A stretch of DNA of 64,000 bases. Source: Flavobacteriales bacterium (GTDB lineage: Bacteria; Bacteroidota; Bacteroidia; Flavobacteriales_F; PHOS-HE28). How positions within the stretch are numbered: the first letter of the stretch is position 1; each line of letters opens with the position of its first letter. Positions 3,413 to 13,475 of this stretch are shown piece after piece. A model generated the notes under the pieces. That model did not search any database and was not told the origin of the DNA. It worked only from the letters and a program-made list of their open reading frames with translations. Both the position numbers and the translations under genes were made by a program. The stretch is taken from assembly GCA_030584065.1 (NCBI GenBank), contig CP129489.1, positions 3,636,235 to 3,700,234 on the forward strand, given 5' to 3'.

Positions 3413-3850
3413 TCAGTTGTAGATGCGCAGCACCGTCCCGTTGAAGGAGGTGTTGTAGGGCTTCAGGGGCAGCGCGGATGGACCCTGCACCACAGCGCCG
3501 CTGCTGATGAGGAAGGCTGACCCGCAGCACATGGTGTCGCGGGCGATGACCTCGCTGCTGTCCACCACCACGCGGCAGAGGTCAGATGTCCGGTAGGGGC
3601 AATGCCGGTCGAGCGCCATGAACTCCGACTGCCCCACCCGGAAGACGATGATCCCCTGGGATCCCCCGCTCAGGTAAAGCCAGCCGCCCGGGACGGCCAG
3701 GTCGGCGTAGGCGGGGTTGTTCACATTGATGGAGATGTCGACCGTAACGGGTGGCACGCCGCCTGAAGAGGGCTTGCGGCAGGAAACGGCCAGGCAGAAC
3801 GAACCGGCCACGGCCGCAAGGGTCAGCTTCAGCGCGGATGAGCGGGTCAT
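3413..3850 (-). CDS. Rieske-like lipoprotein with altered cluster ligands
   Basis: A 145-residue exported lipoprotein: signal sequence followed by a lipobox-like AVSC with the lipidated Cys at residue 24. The rest has the layout of the small Rieske lipoproteins of Bacteroidota: a GGSQGIIVFRVGQSEFMALD strand region, a first ligand loop (RHCPYR), a second loop (MCCGSAF) and the GPSALPLKPY ending. The usual Cys-x-His and Cys-x-x-His pairs are not intact: the first loop has Tyr where His is expected and the second has a Cys pair with no His. Cluster binding is therefore uncertain. ATG 3850 is chosen over an upstream TTG because it directly precedes the hydrophobic signal. It is divergent from the gene at 3925. 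Confidence 0.75.
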   Translation of the reverse strand: MTRSSALKLTLAAVAGSFCLAVSCRKPSSGGVPPVTVDISINVNNPAYADLAVPGGWLYLSGGSQGIIVFRVGQSEFMALDRHCPYRTSDLCRVVVDSSEVIARDTMCCGSAFLISSGAVVQGPSALPLKPYNTSFNGTVLRIYN

Positions 3851-3876
3851 GGTCCGTTGCGTGTCCAATGAAGGAA

Positions 3877-4474: not shown

Positions 4475-7400
4475 ATGGTGAGAAGGCTATCCACCGCAGT
4501 CGCCCTTTGTTTCATCGCAGCGTTCCCGGCGCTCGCCCAAGTGGGCACCGGCAGCCTCAAGGGCAAGATCTCCGATAAGAAGACCGGCGAACCGCTGCCG
4601 TTCGTGAACATCATCGTGGAAGCCCGGGGCAGCCAGGTCACCGGCGGCGCCACCGACTTCGACGGCAACTACTTCATCAAGCCCATCGATCCGGGCACCT
4701 ACGATGTGGTGGTGAGCTATGTGGGGTACCAGCCCTACAAGCAGACCGGGGTGGTGGTCAACAGCAACATCATCACCTTCCTCAACATCCAGCTCAATGC
4801 GGGCATCGAGCTCAAGGAGTTCGAGGTGGTGCAGTATTCCGTGCCCCTCATCAACAAGGACGGTGGCGCTTCCGGCGGCACCGTGACGCGCGAGGACATC
4901 GCCCGCATGCCGGGCCGCAGCGCGGCGTCCATCGCCACCACGGTGGCCGGCGCCAGTGATGCGGGCACGGGGGGCGGCATCAGCATCCGGGGCGCGCGCA
5001 CCGAGGCCACCTATTACTACATCGATGGCGTGAAGGTGCCGGCCGGTGCAGGTACCGGATTGCCCAAAGGGGCCATCGAGGAGGTGCAGGTGATCACCGG
5101 CGGTGTGCCCGCCAACTACGGCGATGTGACCGGTGGCTTGATCAACATCACCACTCGTGGTCCGAGCCGGCAGTTCTTCGGCGGCGCGGAATACCTTACT
5201 TCCGGCTACAAGGTGGGAAAGGATATCACGGATATCGTCGGTCTGGACAAGTTCGCCTTCAATCAGGTGGAGGCGAGCTTGAGCGGCCCGCTGCTGTTCC
5301 GCAAGGACAGCCTGGGCAACAAGTCCAAGCCCCTCATCGGCTTCTTCATCAGCGGCCAGTACACGAACGCGGTGGATCCCAGCCCGAGCTATATCGGTGA
5401 TGTGCGCCTGCGCGCGGATGTGCGCGACCGGCTGGATGCCAACCCCGGCGTGATCCTGAACACCGGGACCGATGTGGCGCTCGTGCCCGCCAGCGAATTC
5501 CTGCGCGCCGGTGATGTGGAGACCATCCGCACGCGCCAGAATGCCGGCCAGACCAGCTTCACAGCCTCCGGTAAGATCGACATCGCCACCACCCAGACGG
5601 TGAACCTCACCCTCGGCGGCTCGCTGGACTATTCCAACCGCCAATCCTACAACCGCCGCAATGCGCTGCTCAACGCCGACCGCAACATCAGGACCAAGGA
5701 GACGAGCTGGCGCGCGTTCATCAAGTACACCCAGCGTTTCGCCAACCGCACCGCCGAGGAGGAGAAGCGGAGCACCATCAAGAACGCCTTCTACAGCCTG
5801 CAGCTCGATTACAGCAGCTACCTGAACAACGTGGAGGATTTCGTGCATGGTGACCGCCTCTTCGACTACGGGTACGTGGGCCGGTTCACCACCTACCGTG
5901 CGCCGCAATTCGAACTGCGCGGGGCCCGCTGGGTGCAGACCGGCGCGCGCGACACCTTGGTCACCTTCACCCCAGGCACCCAGAATCCGGCCCTCGCGGA
6001 CTTCAACAGCTACTACTTCAACGCCCTTCCCCGCGAGCAGTACCCCGTGGCCAATCTCTTCGGGGCTGAAGTGGATGTCCCCGGATACCTCGGCTACTTC
6101 CAGGACCGGATCGAGACCCAGCGCCGCGGTGTGCTTTGGAACGGCGACCGCCCCATCGCGCTCTACCAGATGTGGAACAACCCGGGCTTCATCGATGATC
6201 CCAACGGAGCCGAGTTCCGCAAGCGCCAGAACGACCAGATCCGCTTCACCGCAATCGGCAGCGCCGATATCGGCCAGCACGCGGTGAGCGTGGGCGTGGA
6301 GTACGAGCAGCTCACCCAGCGCCGCTACGACCTGGTGCCCACCGGCCTCTGGACCCGCGCACGCGGCCTCACCAACTTCCACATCGAGAACTTCGTTCCC
6401 GATTCGCTGCCGCCCAGCGATATCGTTGAGCTGCCCAACAGCCCCTTCCCATTCCACTTCTACGACCGGCTGGTGGGCGATGACCAGCGCTTCTTCGACC
6501 GCAGCCTGCGCCAGCGCCTCGGCCTCGATCCCAACGGCACGGACTACATCGATGTGGATGCCCTCGACCCCAGCGCGCTCGCGCTCGACATGTTCGATGC
6601 GGACGAGCTCATCAATGCGGGCAACAACCTGGTCTCCTTCGTGGGCTACGACTACCTGGGCAACCGCCTCACCCGCAAGCCCAGCTTCGATGACTTCTTC
6701 ACGGAGCTGGATGAGCGCGGCCGTTACACCCGTGCCCAAGCGCCCTTCCAGCCCATCTACATGGCGGGCTATATCATGGACAAGTTCGCCTTCGACGACA
6801 TCATCTTCAACGTGGGCGTGCGCGTTGACCGCTACGATGCCAACCAGAACGTGCTGAAGGACAAGTACCTGTGGCGTGAGGCCTACAAGGCCGGCGATGC
6901 GGTGCCGGTGTCCGCCATCCAGCAGCAGCTCAGCAACCGCCCGAGCAACATCGGGGATGATTTCGTGGTGTACGTGGACGACTACGAGGACCCGAACGCG
7001 GTGCGCGGCTACCGCGACGGCGATACGTGGTACAGCGCCACTGGCGTGGAACTCGCGGACGGCAACTCCATCCAGCAGGGCGGTCGCATCCGTCCATACC
7101 TCATCGGCGGCGACGACCGCAGCGAGCTGCAGGGCACTTCGCCCATGACCCGCTCGGCCTTCAGGGACTATACGCCGGTGGTGAACATCATGCCCCGCAT
7201 CGCGTTCTCCTTCCCGATCAGCGATGAGGCCGTGTTCTTCGCGCACTACGACGTGCTGACGCAGCGCCCGAACGCCATCCAGTCGCGCGGCGACCTGGTG
7301 AGCTACGCCTACATCGAGCAGAACAACGATGTGCTGAACAACCCCAACCTGAAGCCCACCAAGACCATCGACTACGAACTGGGCTTCCAGCAGGTGCTCG

Positions 7401-8233
7401 GCAAGGCCTCCTCGCTGAAGATCGCGGCCTTCTACCGCGAGCTGCGCGACCAGATCACGGTGCGCAACGTGGTGAACGCCTGGCCGCGCGACTACCGCAC
7501 CTATGACAACTTCGACTTCGGCACGGTGAAGGGCTTCACCGCCACCTTCGACCTGCGCAGGACCGGCAACGTATGGATGCGCGCCAGCTATACCCTGCAG
7601 TTCGCCGATGGCACCGGCTCCGGGCCCACCACGGGCATCAACCTGATCAACAGCGGCCAGCCGAACCTGCGGACCATTTCGCCGCTCGACTTCGACCAGC
7701 GCCACCGCTTCCAGACCACCTTCGACTTCCGCTATGGCCGCGGCAAGGACTATAACGGTCCCATGCTCTTCGGCAAGCCCATCCTGCAGGGCACCGGCGT
7801 CAACATGGTGAACATCCTGGGCAGCGGCACGCCGTACAGCCGCAGCTCGCAGGTGGTGAGCGAGGCCACGGGCGCAAGCAACTATCGCCTCGACGGCACC
7901 CTGAACGGTGCCCGCCTCCCGTGGCAGTTCACCACGGACATGCAGATCGACCGTGACATCCCGCTGACCTTCGGCGGCAAGGATGGCGACAAGGCGAAGA
8001 GCGCCGACCTCAACGTATACCTGCTGATCACCAACGTGTTCAATACCGAGAACATCACCGGTGTGTACCGCTTCACCGGTTCGCCCGTGAACGACGGCTA
8101 TCTGGCGCAGCTCACGGACCGCTCGCAGACCGATCCCGACGCCTACCGCGACCTCTACACGATCAAGAACAACGAGCCCAACAACTTCGGCGCGCCGCGC
8201 ACCATCCGGTTGGGCGTTCGCCTGAGCTTCTGA
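4475..8233 (+). CDS. TonB-dependent outer-membrane receptor with carboxypeptidase-like N-terminal domain
   Basis: A 1252-residue outer-membrane protein. Signal peptide residues 1-21 (ending FPALAQ), then a carboxypeptidase regulatory-like fold (GSLKGKISDKKTGEPLPFVN through VSYVGYQPYKQTGVVV, about residues 25-105), then a plug domain (SIRGARTEATYYYIDGVKVP; GAIEEVQVITGGVPANYGDV), and a long beta-barrel ending in an aromatic residue (IRLGVRLSF). No SusD partner is nearby, so this is not a standard polysaccharide utilisation locus; the substrate is unknown. ATG 4475 is chosen over the adjacent TTG. The stop overlaps the start of the next gene by one base (TGATG), so the two are translationally coupled. 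Confidence 0.93.
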   Translation: MVRRLSTAVALCFIAAFPALAQVGTGSLKGKISDKKTGEPLPFVNIIVEARGSQVTGGATDFDGNYFIKPIDPGTYDVVVSYVGYQPYKQTGVVVNSNIITFLNIQLNAGIELKEFEVVQYSVPLINKDGGASGGTVTREDIARMPGRSAASIATTVAGASDAGTGGGISIRGARTEATYYYIDGVKVPAGAGTGLPKGAIEEVQVITGGVPANYGDVTGGLINITTRGPSRQFFGGAEYLTSGYKVGKDITDIVGLDKFAFNQVEASLSGPLLFRKDSLGNKSKPLIGFFISGQYTNAVDPSPSYIGDVRLRADVRDRLDANPGVILNTGTDVALVPASEFLRAGDVETIRTRQNAGQTSFTASGKIDIATTQTVNLTLGGSLDYSNRQSYNRRNALLNADRNIRTKETSWRAFIKYTQRFANRTAEEEKRSTIKNAFYSLQLDYSSYLNNVEDFVHGDRLFDYGYVGRFTTYRAPQFELRGARWVQTGARDTLVTFTPGTQNPALADFNSYYFNALPREQYPVANLFGAEVDVPGYLGYFQDRIETQRRGVLWNGDRPIALYQMWNNPGFIDDPNGAEFRKRQNDQIRFTAIGSADIGQHAVSVGVEYEQLTQRRYDLVPTGLWTRARGLTNFHIENFVPDSLPPSDIVELPNSPFPFHFYDRLVGDDQRFFDRSLRQRLGLDPNGTDYIDVDALDPSALALDMFDADELINAGNNLVSFVGYDYLGNRLTRKPSFDDFFTELDERGRYTRAQAPFQPIYMAGYIMDKFAFDDIIFNVGVRVDRYDANQNVLKDKYLWREAYKAGDAVPVSAIQQQLSNRPSNIGDDFVVYVDDYEDPNAVRGYRDGDTWYSATGVELADGNSIQQGGRIRPYLIGGDDRSELQGTSPMTRSAFRDYTPVVNIMPRIAFSFPISDEAVFFAHYDVLTQRPNAIQSRGDLVSYAYIEQNNDVLNNPNLKPTKTIDYELGFQQVLGKASSLKIAAFYRELRDQITVRNVVNAWPRDYRTYDNFDFGTVKGFTATFDLRRTGNVWMRASYTLQFADGTGSGPTTGINLINSGQPNLRTISPLDFDQRHRFQTTFDFRYGRGKDYNGPMLFGKPILQGTGVNMVNILGSGTPYSRSSQVVSEATGASNYRLDGTLNGARLPWQFTTDMQIDRDIPLTFGGKDGDKAKSADLNVYLLITNVFNTENITGVYRFTGSPVNDGYLAQLTDRSQTDPDAYRDLYTIKNNEPNNFGAPRTIRLGVRLSF

Positions 8234-11200
8234 TGAACCGATACCGCACGAACATGAAAGGCCTACACAGCGCAACCACCAGAACCTTCGCTCTGAGCAT
8301 GGCCTTGCCCCTCGCCCTCGTGGCGGCGGCATGGAATCCGCCTTCCACCAGTGGCATGCAGCAGCGTGGCGGCGGGGCCCCGAAGGCGGGGGCCTGCTCA
8401 CCGGCCACGCAGGTGACGCAGCTCGACTACAACAACGTGCGCGCCGTGATCGAGAACGGCGGCAACGTGTGGACCCGCCGGAGCGGCACGGGCCGTTCGG
8501 GGTACGAGGTGCCGAAGACGGATGACTTCAGCGGGGCCAATGCGATCTACGCCGGCGGTCTCTGGATGGGCGGCGAGTCCTCGGCCGGCCAGCTCAAGCT
8601 CGCAGCGGTGCTGTACCGTGCCTCGGGCAACGACTTCTGGCCCGGTCCGCTGAACCGCTCCGATGCCAGCGTGACCCCCGATGTCTGCCAGGCCTATGAT
8701 AAATTCTGGACGACCAGGCGTGCCGAGGCCGAGGCGCACCTGGCCTGGATCAACTGCGTGAACACCCCGGGCTGCGATGTGGCCGAGCTCTTCCCCGAGG
8801 GGTACTCGGTCCCGCCCACCTTCCTGCAATGGCCGGCCTTGGGCGATCCGGAGGTGAACCAGGACCTCTACCTCGCGCCCTTCCTCGACTACAATGAGGA
8901 CGGCAGCTACAACCCCTATGACGGCGACTATCCGGATTACGGGTTCGACCAGACCGTGGAGGCCTGCAAGAACAAGCGCCGTGACGACCCCGTGCCCCTG
9001 TTCGGCGATTACAACATCTACTGGATCTTCAACGACAAGGGCGATGCCCATACGGAGACCCAGGGCCAGCCCATCGGCCTCGAAGTGCGCGCACAGGCCT
9101 TCGCCTTCAGCGCGAACAACGAGATCAACAACATGACCTTCTACAACTACACGGTCATCAACTGGGCCTCGCAGACCCTGGTGAACACCTACTTCGGCCA
9201 CTTCGTGGATCCCGATCTGGGCTGCTCGAACGATGACTTCACCGGTTGCGACGTGCGTCGCGGGCTGGGATACGTGTACAACTGGCAGGACGTGGATCAG
9301 GCCTGCCTCGGAGCCGTGGGCTACGGCGGGCCGGCACCGCCGCCGCCCGCGATCGGGGTGGACTTCTTCGAAGGCCCGTTCCAGGATTCCGATGGAACCG
9401 ACAATCCTGGCCCCCAGACCTATCTGGAGAACTTCGACTGCGTGCAGGCGCAACTGCAGGGCGGTATCCCCTACAAGGGCATCGGTATCGGCTATGGCGA
9501 TGGAATCGTGGACAACGAGCGTTTCGGCATGCGCGCATTCCTCTACTTCAACCGCGAGGCGCCCAACGCCAACATGACCGACCCGAGCATTGCGGGCCAC
9601 TACTACAACTATCTGCGGAGCATCTGGCGCAACGGTGTGGAGATGACGCACGGCGGCAATGGCTACGATGCTTCGGGCAACGGCATCCGCACGTTCTACA
9701 TGTTCCCGGGCACCACCGACCCCGTGGGCTGGGGAACCAACTGCGCGCCCCAAGGGGATTGGCACGATGAGGACCGCACGCTGGTGGACCGCCGCTTCGT
9801 GCAGAGTGCGGGGCCCTTCACCCTCGAGGCCGGTGCATTCAACAACATCACGGTGGGGGTTGTGTATGCCCGCTCACCCGTCGGCAGTGCCGCATCCAGT
9901 CTCGGTCCCCTGCGCGTGGCCGATGACAAGGCGCAGGCCCTCTTCGACAACTGCTTCAAGATCCTCGATGGCCCGGATGCACCTGACCTCACCATCCGCG
10001 AACTGGACCGCGAGCTGATCCTCTACATCACCAACCCGGCGGGCAGCAACAACGAGAACGAGGCCTACCAGGAGCTCGACCCCATCATCCCGTTGGACAA
10101 CGGCCTGGGTGGACCGCCCTACGACCGCTTCTACCGGTTCCAGGGCTACAAGATCTACCAGATGAAGAACGCCGAGGCCAGCGTGGCGGATCTCGACAAC
10201 GTGGAGCTCGCCCGACTGGTCTACCAGGGCGATGTGCAGGACGGCATCGGCCAGATCATCAACTACCCCTACGACGAGACCATCCAGCAGGTGGTGCCCA
10301 CCGAGCAGGTGAACGGCGCGGATCAGGGCATCCGCCATGCCATCCGCATCACCACGGACAGGTTCGCCCAAGGCGATCCGACGCTGGTGAACTTCAAGTC
10401 GTACTACTACATCGCCATTGCCTACGGCTACAACAACTACGAGGACTACAATGTGAACGAGGGCACCGGCCAGGCCTTCCCTTACGTGGCCGGCCGTAAA
10501 GCCGCCTTCGGTTCCATCCGCACCTACGTGGGAATCCCGCACAAGCCCGGTGCCGAGTCCTTCGGAACCCGGCAGAATGCGAACTACGGCGATGCCCTTC
10601 AGATCACCCGTCTCGAGGGCCAGGGCAATGGCAATCTCGAGATCGAGCTCGATCAGGCTACGGAGAACGCCATCGTCGCTTCCAGCCCGTGGCGGAAGGA
10701 TGAGTTGACCTATAAGCGCGGGCTCGCCCCTATCGAAGTGAAGGTGGTGGATCCGCTGAAGGTGCCCAACGCCCAGTTCGAGGTGTGGTTCCAGGATTCG
10801 ATCACCCCGGGCAACCTGGATGACGCCTATTGGTACCTGAAGAATGCGACCACGGGCGAGACCGCCTTCGCCCAGCGGGCCATCGACATGCCCTATGAGC
10901 GCCTCTTCCCGGAGTACGGCATCTCGGTCACCATCGGCCAGGCATACTTCCGCAATACCTACACCAAGCCCCTGGGCCTGGGCTCCATCGAGTTCGCCGA
11001 CCCCTCCAAGGCCTGGTTGACGGGCATCCCCGATGCCGACGGCCTCTCCGTGTTCAACTGGATCCGCAGCGGCAACTTCGTGGACGGTGAGAACACCCCC
11101 GCACAGTATTCCGACCGAACGGGTATTGATGATGAGCAGACCTACGAGAAGCTGCTCGGCGGGACGTGGGCGCCCTGGCCGCTCGTGGGCGGCGCTGACT

Positions 11201-12324
11201 TCCAGCCTGGACTGAACCCCGATGGGCAGCAGGCCAACACCTTGGCGCAGGTGCGGGAGACGCCCAGCGTACAGGTGGTGATCACCAAGGACAAGAGCAA
11301 GTGGACGCGCTCCGCGGTGCTGGAGCAGGAGTCGAATACCACGCTCAGCCAGGGCGGTGCCATCAAGCTGGCCCTGCGTGCCTCCCCGAGCATCGACAAG
11401 GACGGCCGCAAGTCGGGCACCCCCGGGTGCAATGAGGATGAGGCCACGCTCGGCGGCACGCAGCCGACCGGCATGGGCTGGTTCCCCGGCTATGCCATCG
11501 ACCTGGAGACCGGTGAGCGCCTGAATATGGCCTATGGTGAGAACAGCTTCTGGGGCGGGGAGATCGGCCGCGACATGATCTGGAACCCGAACGAGGTGTT
11601 CACGCTGCCTGCCCCGCAGGGCGAGATTCCATCCCCCTACTTCGGCGGATGCCACTGGATCTACGTCTTCAAGAACGACCGTCGCCAGTCGGGAGTACAG
11701 AACAGGGTGGGCCAGTACGACCAGGGCCAGTACATCTATCAGAACCTGCCCTCGGGCGGTGCGGCGCGCGCCACGGTGCTGCGTGGCATCGGCTGGGTGG
11801 GTAGCGCCATCAGCGTGTCCGGTCGTGAGTTCCTTGGCACGGACGTGCGCATCCGCCTCAATGTGGCCAAGCCCTACCGGTCCTACACGGACTACGCAGG
11901 CAGCCCGGCGCCGATCACCCCTGCGCTGAACGGCGGACTTCCCCTGTACCGCTTCGGGACGGGCGAGTTCGCCACGGAGACCGGAGTGGCCGATGTGGCC
12001 AATGAGTTCCTCGACCGCATCAACGTGGTGCCGAACCCCTACTACGCCTTCAGCGGATACGAGACATCGCGCCTGGACAACCGGGTGAAGTTCATCAACC
12101 TCCCGCAGGTCTGCACCATCTCCATCTACACGGTGAACGGCACCTTGGTGCGCCGTTTCCGCAAGGACAACAGCCTCACCTACCTGGACTGGGACCTGAA
12201 GAACACGAACAACATCCCCATCGCTGGCGGCGTGTACATCTGTCATGTGGATGTGCCGAACGTCGGCGAGAAGGTGCTCAAGTGGTTCGGTGTGATGCGC
12301 CCGCTCGACCTCCAGAACTTCTAG
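8233..12324 (+). CDS. very large secreted protein with T9SS-type C-terminal domain
   Basis: A 1363-residue exported protein. The N terminus carries a signal-like hydrophobic stretch (about residues 20-35) and the body is rich in Asn, Tyr and Gly with many paired aromatic segments (NPYDGDYPDYGFDQTVEACK, NNMTFYNYTVINW). The last 100 residues look like a T9SS sorting domain: VVPNPYYAFSGYE from about residue 1265, then VKFINLPQVCTISIYTVNGT, a WDLKN strand and IAGGVYICHVDVP, ending VLKWFGVMRPLDLQNF. I recognise no enzymatic domain. Lying between a TonB receptor and a PorV-like protein, it may be surface-exposed cargo of the same module. ATG 8233 overlaps the preceding stop; a second ATG at 8254 is possible. 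Confidence 0.85.
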   Translation: MNRYRTNMKGLHSATTRTFALSMALPLALVAAAWNPPSTSGMQQRGGGAPKAGACSPATQVTQLDYNNVRAVIENGGNVWTRRSGTGRSGYEVPKTDDFSGANAIYAGGLWMGGESSAGQLKLAAVLYRASGNDFWPGPLNRSDASVTPDVCQAYDKFWTTRRAEAEAHLAWINCVNTPGCDVAELFPEGYSVPPTFLQWPALGDPEVNQDLYLAPFLDYNEDGSYNPYDGDYPDYGFDQTVEACKNKRRDDPVPLFGDYNIYWIFNDKGDAHTETQGQPIGLEVRAQAFAFSANNEINNMTFYNYTVINWASQTLVNTYFGHFVDPDLGCSNDDFTGCDVRRGLGYVYNWQDVDQACLGAVGYGGPAPPPPAIGVDFFEGPFQDSDGTDNPGPQTYLENFDCVQAQLQGGIPYKGIGIGYGDGIVDNERFGMRAFLYFNREAPNANMTDPSIAGHYYNYLRSIWRNGVEMTHGGNGYDASGNGIRTFYMFPGTTDPVGWGTNCAPQGDWHDEDRTLVDRRFVQSAGPFTLEAGAFNNITVGVVYARSPVGSAASSLGPLRVADDKAQALFDNCFKILDGPDAPDLTIRELDRELILYITNPAGSNNENEAYQELDPIIPLDNGLGGPPYDRFYRFQGYKIYQMKNAEASVADLDNVELARLVYQGDVQDGIGQIINYPYDETIQQVVPTEQVNGADQGIRHAIRITTDRFAQGDPTLVNFKSYYYIAIAYGYNNYEDYNVNEGTGQAFPYVAGRKAAFGSIRTYVGIPHKPGAESFGTRQNANYGDALQITRLEGQGNGNLEIELDQATENAIVASSPWRKDELTYKRGLAPIEVKVVDPLKVPNAQFEVWFQDSITPGNLDDAYWYLKNATTGETAFAQRAIDMPYERLFPEYGISVTIGQAYFRNTYTKPLGLGSIEFADPSKAWLTGIPDADGLSVFNWIRSGNFVDGENTPAQYSDRTGIDDEQTYEKLLGGTWAPWPLVGGADFQPGLNPDGQQANTLAQVRETPSVQVVITKDKSKWTRSAVLEQESNTTLSQGGAIKLALRASPSIDKDGRKSGTPGCNEDEATLGGTQPTGMGWFPGYAIDLETGERLNMAYGENSFWGGEIGRDMIWNPNEVFTLPAPQGEIPSPYFGGCHWIYVFKNDRRQSGVQNRVGQYDQGQYIYQNLPSGGAARATVLRGIGWVGSAISVSGREFLGTDVRIRLNVAKPYRSYTDYAGSPAPITPALNGGLPLYRFGTGEFATETGVADVANEFLDRINVVPNPYYAFSGYETSRLDNRVKFINLPQVCTISIYTVNGTLVRRFRKDNSLTYLDWDLKNTNNIPIAGGVYICHVDVPNVGEKVLKWFGVMRPLDLQNF

Positions 12325-12352
12325 ACCCGACCTGACGAACCGAATCACGGAC

Positions 12353-13402
12353 ATGAAGCGATCGATATACCACGGACCGGTGCTCGCGTGCGCACTGGTG
12401 GCTGCAGCGGCAGGCCCAGCCATGGCAGGCAATCCTGACCGGGCCGGCTCGGCCGGTGCCACGCAGTTGCTGCTCAATCCCTGGGCGCGTTCCTCGGGCT
12501 GGAGTATGGCGAATACGGCCAGGGTGAAGGGTGCCGAGGCCATGTTCGGCAACGTGGCGGGCCTATCCGCGGTGAACAAGACCGAGGTGCTCTTCACCAA
12601 CATGCAGCTGCCCGGCGCCGGCATGTCGCTCAACAGCGTGGGCCTTGGCCAGAAGCTGGGCGCGAGCGGAGTGCTCGGCGTAACGGCTTCCGTGCTCTCC
12701 TTCGGCGAGCTGGAAGTGACCACCGTGGACAACCCCGAGGGCGGGCGCGGCGCTTTCCGGCCGAGCCTATCCAACATCGGCGTCGCCTACTCGAAGGGCT
12801 TCTCCAACAGCATCTTCGGCGGCCTGCTGCTGCGGGTGGTCTCAGAGTCCACCTCCAACGTGCGGGCCACCGGCGTGTGCTTCGATGCGGGCATCCATTA
12901 CGTGACCGGTGAGCAGGACAACATCCACTTCGGAATCGCCCTGAAGAACGTGGGACCGGCCATGCAATTCAGCGGCGACGGGCTCGCGGTGCAGGGCCTG
13001 CTCACCTCCGGCAGCGATCAGCTCACCCTGCAGCAGCGGTCGGGCAATTTCGAGATTCCCTCGCTCCTGAACATCGGCGCGGCCTACGACTGGCATATCA
13101 ACGAGATGCACCGCGTGACATTCGCGGGCACCTTCGTGTCCAACTCGTTCACCAGGGACCAGGGCATCATCGGCGTGGAGTACGCCTTCCGCAAGATGCT
13201 CCACCTCCGCGGCGGCTACCAGTATGAGACGAAGGATGACGCCGAGGAGCGCACCTCCTGGTTCACCGGGCCGTCCGCAGGCCTCAGCGTCGATTTCCCC
13301 TTCGGCGAGGAGAAGAAATCAGCCGTTGCCCTGGACTATGCCTACCGGGCCACGAACCCCTTCGGAGGCTTCCACAGCCTGGGCATCCGCATCAGCCTCT
13401 GA
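12353..13402 (+). CDS. PorV/PorQ-family outer-membrane protein
   Basis: A 349-residue protein with a signal peptide (ending AAAAGPAMAG) and the FadL-like barrel pattern of the PorV/PorQ family: the early motif GATQLLLNPWARSSGWSMAN, then EAMFGNVAGLSAV, repeated beta strands, and an aromatic/hydrophobic terminus (GFHSLGIRISL). In T9SS, PorV is the outer-membrane shuttle that collects cargo from the translocon and delivers it to the attachment complex. This copy sits 28 bases after a gene for a protein with a T9SS-like tail, so a dedicated role for that cargo is a reasonable inference. It ends just before a strong hairpin. Confidence 0.85.
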   Translation: MKRSIYHGPVLACALVAAAAGPAMAGNPDRAGSAGATQLLLNPWARSSGWSMANTARVKGAEAMFGNVAGLSAVNKTEVLFTNMQLPGAGMSLNSVGLGQKLGASGVLGVTASVLSFGELEVTTVDNPEGGRGAFRPSLSNIGVAYSKGFSNSIFGGLLLRVVSESTSNVRATGVCFDAGIHYVTGEQDNIHFGIALKNVGPAMQFSGDGLAVQGLLTSGSDQLTLQQRSGNFEIPSLLNIGAAYDWHINEMHRVTFAGTFVSNSFTRDQGIIGVEYAFRKMLHLRGGYQYETKDDAEERTSWFTGPSAGLSVDFPFGEEKKSAVALDYAYRATNPFGGFHSLGIRISL

Positions 13403-13419
13403 ACAACCCCGACTGCGAT

Positions 13420-13447
13420 GGAAGAGGACCTCTCGGGGTCCTCTTCC
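13420..13447 (+). terminator. terminator of the TonB receptor operon
   Basis: A perfect 11-bp stem (arms 13420-13430 and 13437-13447, 6-base loop) 17 bases after the PorV-like stop, followed by GTTCTTTG. The trailing TTCTTTG may also belong to the greA promoter. Confidence 0.75.
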
Positions 13448-13475
13448 GTTCTTTGCATCACCAGACGCAACGGCC

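Follow-up and report, generated by a model that had tools for sequence, protein, structure and literature searches.

A trio of genes in fixed order, encoding a TonB-dependent receptor (T), a giant secreted surface protein (G), and an outer-membrane barrel of the PorV/PorQ family (P), runs across most of the phylum Bacteroidota and is core in the genus from which our DNA derives. The literature that we searched, largely titles and abstract openings, yielded neither a description of this trio nor a function for it. We propose, with a confidence that stops a little short of even, that the operon encodes a single outer-membrane uptake complex in which G would be exported by the T9SS, anchored on a barrel, and employed as the capture subunit of T. 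If this is true, the rule that one common PorV serves all type A tails, as given in the available portion of PMC12618676, is broken; the T9SS is directly involved in taking up nutrients; and we have an account of how Bacteroidota that lack SusD might feed large molecules to TonB receptors.

All three genes lie on the forward strand of the 64,000-nucleotide stretch of DNA that we analyzed (the window). T (4475..8233; 1,252 aa) starts with the ATG at 4475, and its stop codon, ending at 8233, shares one base with the start of G (TGATG). G (8233..12324; 1,363 aa), recognized from its open reading frame and family matches, is followed after a gap of 28 bases by P (12353..13402; 349 aa). A preliminary description of this DNA had called the packing tight and the terminator at the unit's end strong, and both claims agree with our coordinates and folding data: 3' of P stands an intrinsic terminator hairpin (13418..13448, forward strand) of 14 to 15 bp, with a folding energy of −27.8 kcal/mol (z −4.2) that was equalled by 0 of 200 shuffles and of which a simple terminator scan caught five inner pairs only. 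The AT-rich promoter region that it had placed at the other end is upheld in its base composition, judged by eye, and not in its promoter score, for no sigma-70-like promoter was scored 5' of T. It had also denied the presence of a SusD and of a standard utilization locus, and rightly so: neither PF14322 nor PF07980 has a match anywhere in the window's genome, no neighboring gene encodes an enzyme, and greA and a HIT gene follow downstream, which together rule such a locus out. The window also encodes, on the reverse strand at 3413-3868, a small secreted protein that to the eye looks like a degenerate Rieske domain with changed ligand residues.

Recurrence throughout the phylum puts the arrangement far beyond chance; the operon is ancient and widespread. 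Within the genus of the window, 38 of 45 genomes carry an intact T-G-P on one contig, T being found in 44, G in 44 (short paralogues counted), and P in 43. Of the other seven genomes, five have fragments of the trio at the ends of contigs, one (69% complete) shows T only, and G008 (94% complete) has none of the three. Across the phylum, with up to two candidate giants scored per genome, the G family is present in 196 of 392 genomes. A scan of public genomes confirmed 560 relatives, of which the best 80 are the named loci. Eleven of these lie at contig ends and were dropped; the 69 assessable loci comprise 50 with T-G-P, 15 whose giant is an orphan lacking both partners, 3 that lack P alone, and 1 that lacks T alone. 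Forty loci, covering 28 families and in 34 cases lying outside the window's class, were hand-picked among the 196 genomes with a giant; priority went to the best or to one per family, so that the frequency of T-G-P among them (36/40) leans to strong matches. The exceptions are two loci at contig ends (L161 and L180), one with copies of G for which neither T nor P was found (L169), and one with two copies of G and with T and P on the opposite strand (L177). L169, L177, and L180 were dropped from alignment A7, and L150 from alignment A9 (37/38 rows). On one Crocinitomicaceae contig, T-G and G-P stand at separate sites (L079 and L078).

The preliminary description had asked for conservation of the triad order across Bacteroidota, which these counts provide, and had named independent occurrence of the three families as evidence against a coupled module. 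On the latter point its claim stands in part: the order is mostly kept, and the orphan giants and the loci short of P or T go against it. Because orphan giants exist, the coupling of the triad can be lost. In Bacteroidia the triad precedes greA at 44 of 49 loci and at 6 of 6 further ones, with HIT following as well; outside the class neither gene gave a match (0/34 loci). Such a fixed site before greA and HIT looks more like the mark of a core function than of an optional nutrient system. Two Bacteroidales MAGs carry a second giant directly after P, in the order T-G-P-G (L117, 15384-17561; L121, 15533-19645).

Residues 1255-1363 of G (11995..12321, forward strand) resemble a T9SS C-terminal domain (CTD) of the PorZ/PorU type by Foldseek, by VIA, and by a profile search of the PDB. 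The predicted model, with pLDDT mostly ~90 and two low stretches, has the Ig-like CTD fold of PorZ, PorU, and RemZ. Foldseek, run among 350,542 chains, ranked PorZ (5m11) first and the RemZ CTD from the SprA-PorV complex (8gl8_D) second; the top two of the VIA aligner were PorZ (Z 10.2 over 90 residues) and PorU (Z 9.1); the tail profile recovered PorZ (E 0.0003) and then PorU (E 0.006) from the PDB; and a sequence search for solved relatives of G returned mainly the tails of PorZ and PorU, weakly. Alignment with hhalign to 30 CTDs of the same genome gave a probability of 76.6 (P 2e-5), and the best NCBIfam match of the window's G is the PorZ tail (E 0.001). With the sorting-domain profile TIGR04183, the window's G scores 11.6 bits, under the cut-off of 23, and its tail is not among the sorting domains that pass the cut-off in its genome, of which there are at least 148, scoring having been capped at 150. 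At E <= 0.01, 37 of 38 giants (the window's and 37 relatives) match the PorZ model and 25 of 38 match TIGR04183. The T9SS-like tail of the preliminary description is therefore sustained by the fold and not by the TIGR04183 cut-off in the window, and the profile match on which it had made that tail depend is split in the same way, being under cut-off for the window's giant and found in those 25.

Type A cargos end within a few residues of their domain, and all 30 ordinary cargos of the window's genome end 0 to 3 residues past the TIGR04183 model. G fails this trait, for it ends in Lys1350 and a fixed 13-residue C-terminal extension (KWFGVMRPLDLQNF; 12280..12321, forward strand). The lysine is kept in 37 of 37 relatives, two rows of alignment A6 with missing ends being left out of the count, and it is followed by 13 residues in 35 of 37 and by 12 and 5 in the rest. 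Orphan giants retain the tail, so they may use P or PorV in trans; the aromatic residue after Lys1350 is, by eye, missing in 5 of 15 orphans, mostly of one clade. The available part of PMC10202324 describes PorU and PorZ as T9SS proteins whose CTDs stay uncut and remain on PorV and PorQ, and it proposes a protective role toward CTDs for cognate PorV-like barrels. In RemZ, according to the accessible text of PMC10994853, one conserved surface lysine contacts PorV.

The other domains of the system were assigned from Pfam and from predicted structure. T has an N-terminal CarboxypepD_reg domain, a plug, and a barrel, all over the Pfam cut-off; the SusC/RagA model has no match in the window's T and a weak one in 27 of 37 scanned T proteins (E <= 0.001). 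A Pfam scan of the window's G gave no match. Residues 46-600 (8368..10032, forward strand) are predicted to form a beta-supersandwich like the N-terminal domains of GH94, GH116, and GH15, with the catalytic barrel absent: the AlphaFold model has a pLDDT of 91.8 and a pTM of 0.90, and VIA aligned it to those front domains with Z up to 18.8 (rmsd 3.1, 255 aligned), plain Foldseek giving low TM-scores of 0.2 to 0.3. In the sugar enzymes so matched, the catalytic barrel lies C-terminal to the supersandwich domain. In G a fibronectin-III-like domain (residues 578-776; 9964..10560, forward strand; VIA Z up to 8.9 over ~100 residues) stands in that place, which argues against G as an enzyme; the Pfam fn3 model matches 1 of 38 scanned giants. 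The predicted supersandwich fold is no proof of sugar binding. Asp-rich stretches are visible by eye. Cys55, invariant in Bacteroidia giants, comes after charged residues in several aligned sequences and is missing in L049, a context that by eye argues against a lipobox and so against G as a lipoprotein. The front module alone with a sorting tail also occurs in the window's own genome (L002 and L003), and two contigs of another genome (G298, C96 and C200) bear long tandem runs of ~560-aa proteins made of the G front domain, roughly 20 copies in that one genome.

The preliminary description was correct in calling P PorV-like: P scores 127.4 bits with NF033709, the model of the PorV/PorQ family (cut-off 90), and all 38 P proteins scanned across the phylum match that model at E <= 0.01. 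The window's P falls under the equivalog cut-offs of PorV (38.7/250), PorQ (58/220), and PorV2 (19.9/325). In our tree, 45 of the 46 P proteins from triads group in one clade, separate from the PorV, PorQ, and PorV2 of the window's genome, a grouping to be taken with caution given single, long outgroup rows. The window's genome has five PorV-family proteins, four of them over cut-off, and the habit of pairing recurs there, with labels assigned by eye: PorV has a PorU-like neighbor, and a PorV2-like barrel adjoins a large PorU2-like CTD protein. The latter barrel type was seen at ~3.88 Mb of the same genome (L224, 8880-15157; G000 C1), where it overlaps the start of a 1,725-aa protein with a PorU-like tail, and a weak fifth PorV-family barrel adjoins a 724-aa outer-membrane-like protein (L225, 6832-10145). 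By analogy, "shuttle," the term of the preliminary description, is probably too narrow for P, which may be an anchor because the solved structures nearest to the tail are of proteins that remain docked on their barrel. In the window, P does not match the TIGR03519 barrel and G does not match the CHU_C tail; weak type B matches occur elsewhere, TIGR03519 in 6 of 38 P proteins and CHU_C in 1 of 38 giants.

Set against known systems, the trio shares features with several and coincides with none of the four that we compared. Like SusC-SusD it joins a TonB-dependent receptor to a dedicated surface partner encoded alongside, but G is not a SusD, has no lipobox by eye, and brings a T9SS tail with its own PorV-family barrel. 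Like PorU-PorV and PorZ-PorQ it joins a PorV-family barrel to a large surface protein with a CTD of the retained kind; it differs from them in the supersandwich and FN3 body of G, in the fixed extension, in the TonB receptor of the operon, and in the separate clade of P. SprB-SprF, a type B CTD with PorP/SprF, likewise has a private barrel gene directly after the cargo gene, although P belongs to the PorV rather than the PorP/SprF family and the G tail is type A-like rather than CHU_C. The type A cargos RemZ and NucA (8gl8 and 8glk) share the tail fold of G, whereas they are bound by the common PorV in the translocon, no private barrel being described for them in the available part of PMC10994853. 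According to the portion of PMC12618676 at hand, PorV serves every type A tail and cognate PorP/SprF shuttles serve those of type B; the trio would add a third arrangement, in which the tail is type A-like and its cognate barrel belongs to the PorV family.

The distribution of the giant is tied to the T9SS translocon. We found sprA in 320 of 392 genomes, and all 196 giant genomes are sprA-positive (196/196), the giant occurring in none of the 72 SprA-negative genomes; occurrence with the translocon only is a trait of type A cargo. Our reading of the giant as SusD-like rests mainly on its inverse relation to SusD. When the 320 sprA genomes are sorted by PF14322 count alone (up to eight candidates scored per genome, kinship ignored), the giant is present in 110 of 110 genomes without SusD, in 71 of 83 with one to four, and in 15 of 127 with at least five. 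Counting PF07980 matches too leaves 96 genomes of the 110 free of SusD, and all 96 have the giant. SusD and giant occur together in 86 of the 196 giant genomes, 15 of which are SusD-rich. Within one family (f25; n = 47) the median SusD count is 2 in giant genomes versus 8 in giant-less ones, and the inverse pattern holds inside its two mixed genera (p = 0.019), a comparison that rests on f25 giants, of which the single locus examined (L174) is divergent. Eleven genomes of other classes, chosen for their many first-look candidates, have 18 to 36 G-family matches each, many of the N-domain only, and 0 to 2 PF14322 matches.

Our proposal builds on the gene order and its conservation, on the predicted folds of tail and front, on occurrence with SprA only, and on the inverse SusD distribution. 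A signal peptide would take G across the inner membrane, and SprA would pass it through the outer one. P would take the T9SS tail of G from the translocon and retain it without cleavage, the 13-residue extension contributing to the docking site, and G would thereby be anchored beside T. We infer this docking and retention, as well as a contact between G and T and the capture of a ligand, for which a glycan is our first guess: the front domain, of carbohydrate-enzyme fold, would catch the ligand, and T would import it. G would thus act as SusD does beside SusC, but as a T9SS-secreted, barrel-anchored protein and not as a lipoprotein. The retained CTDs of PorU and PorZ, the analogous pairing of barrel and CTD protein elsewhere in the genome, the SprA and SusD patterns, and the supersandwich speak for uptake; the orphan giants without partners (15/69), the giant genomes that also have SusD (86/196), and the fixed greA site speak against it.

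P might instead be a private secretion shuttle only, as SprF is for SprB, with G an adhesin or coat and T co-transcribed for a separate purpose. A barrel gene directly 3' of its cargo is indeed the layout of type B CTDs with PorP/SprF (available text of PMC12618676), orphan giants occur as orphan type B cargos do, and the FN3-like domain and the Asp-rich stretches would fit an adhesin. We nevertheless consider this unlikely, as T stands beside G as regularly as P does (three loci with T and without P, one with P and without T) and as the giant is distributed inversely to SusD. It appears quite improbable that the complex serves envelope building, for instance the handling of surface lipopolysaccharide (LPS) in the manner of PorZ, T being a partner for import or signalling: PorZ is the nearest relative of the G tail, the front has a sugar-enzyme fold, and the locus is single and fixed in Bacteroidia, but the 18 to 36 family matches per genome in other classes suggest diversification, and we know of no place for a TonB receptor in LPS delivery. 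The inverse pattern itself could reflect phylogeny only, SusD-rich clades having lost the triad for other reasons, which bears on the SusD argument only and is compatible with any of the other readings; both traits are clade-bound, and genomes of family f6 retain both. That the inverse holds inside f25 and its two mixed genera makes us lean against this explanation, but the divergence of L174, the one f25 locus examined, leaves it a real possibility.

The uptake complex, if it exists, raises a broader conjecture, to which we give clearly less than even confidence: the trio may represent another class of Bacteroidota TonB uptake systems, older than the SusD kind and still widespread, built on a T9SS giant and a private PorV-family barrel, and supplanted by SusD lipoproteins in the lineages most familiar from gut and laboratory. 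On the giant tree (a quick method with midpoint root, long branches flagged), the orphan giants are nested among triad giants, at least 10 changes being needed, and two orphan/triad sister pairs each share one genome (L105/L093 and L086/L082). The triad therefore looks ancestral and the orphans look like later copies; the same nesting and same-genome sisters argue against orphan giants as an ancient separate family. L174 (genome G341, family f25) keeps the T-G-P order with a P that groups with PorV2 and with five residues after the lysine. It may represent an older, parallel form of the trio, and f25 giants may be of a divergent kind. Five loci from MAGs titled Chryseobacterium gleum (L074, L090, L104, L107, and L110) have giants that group with those of Crocinitomicaceae or other Flavobacteriales MAGs, and their names look wrong.
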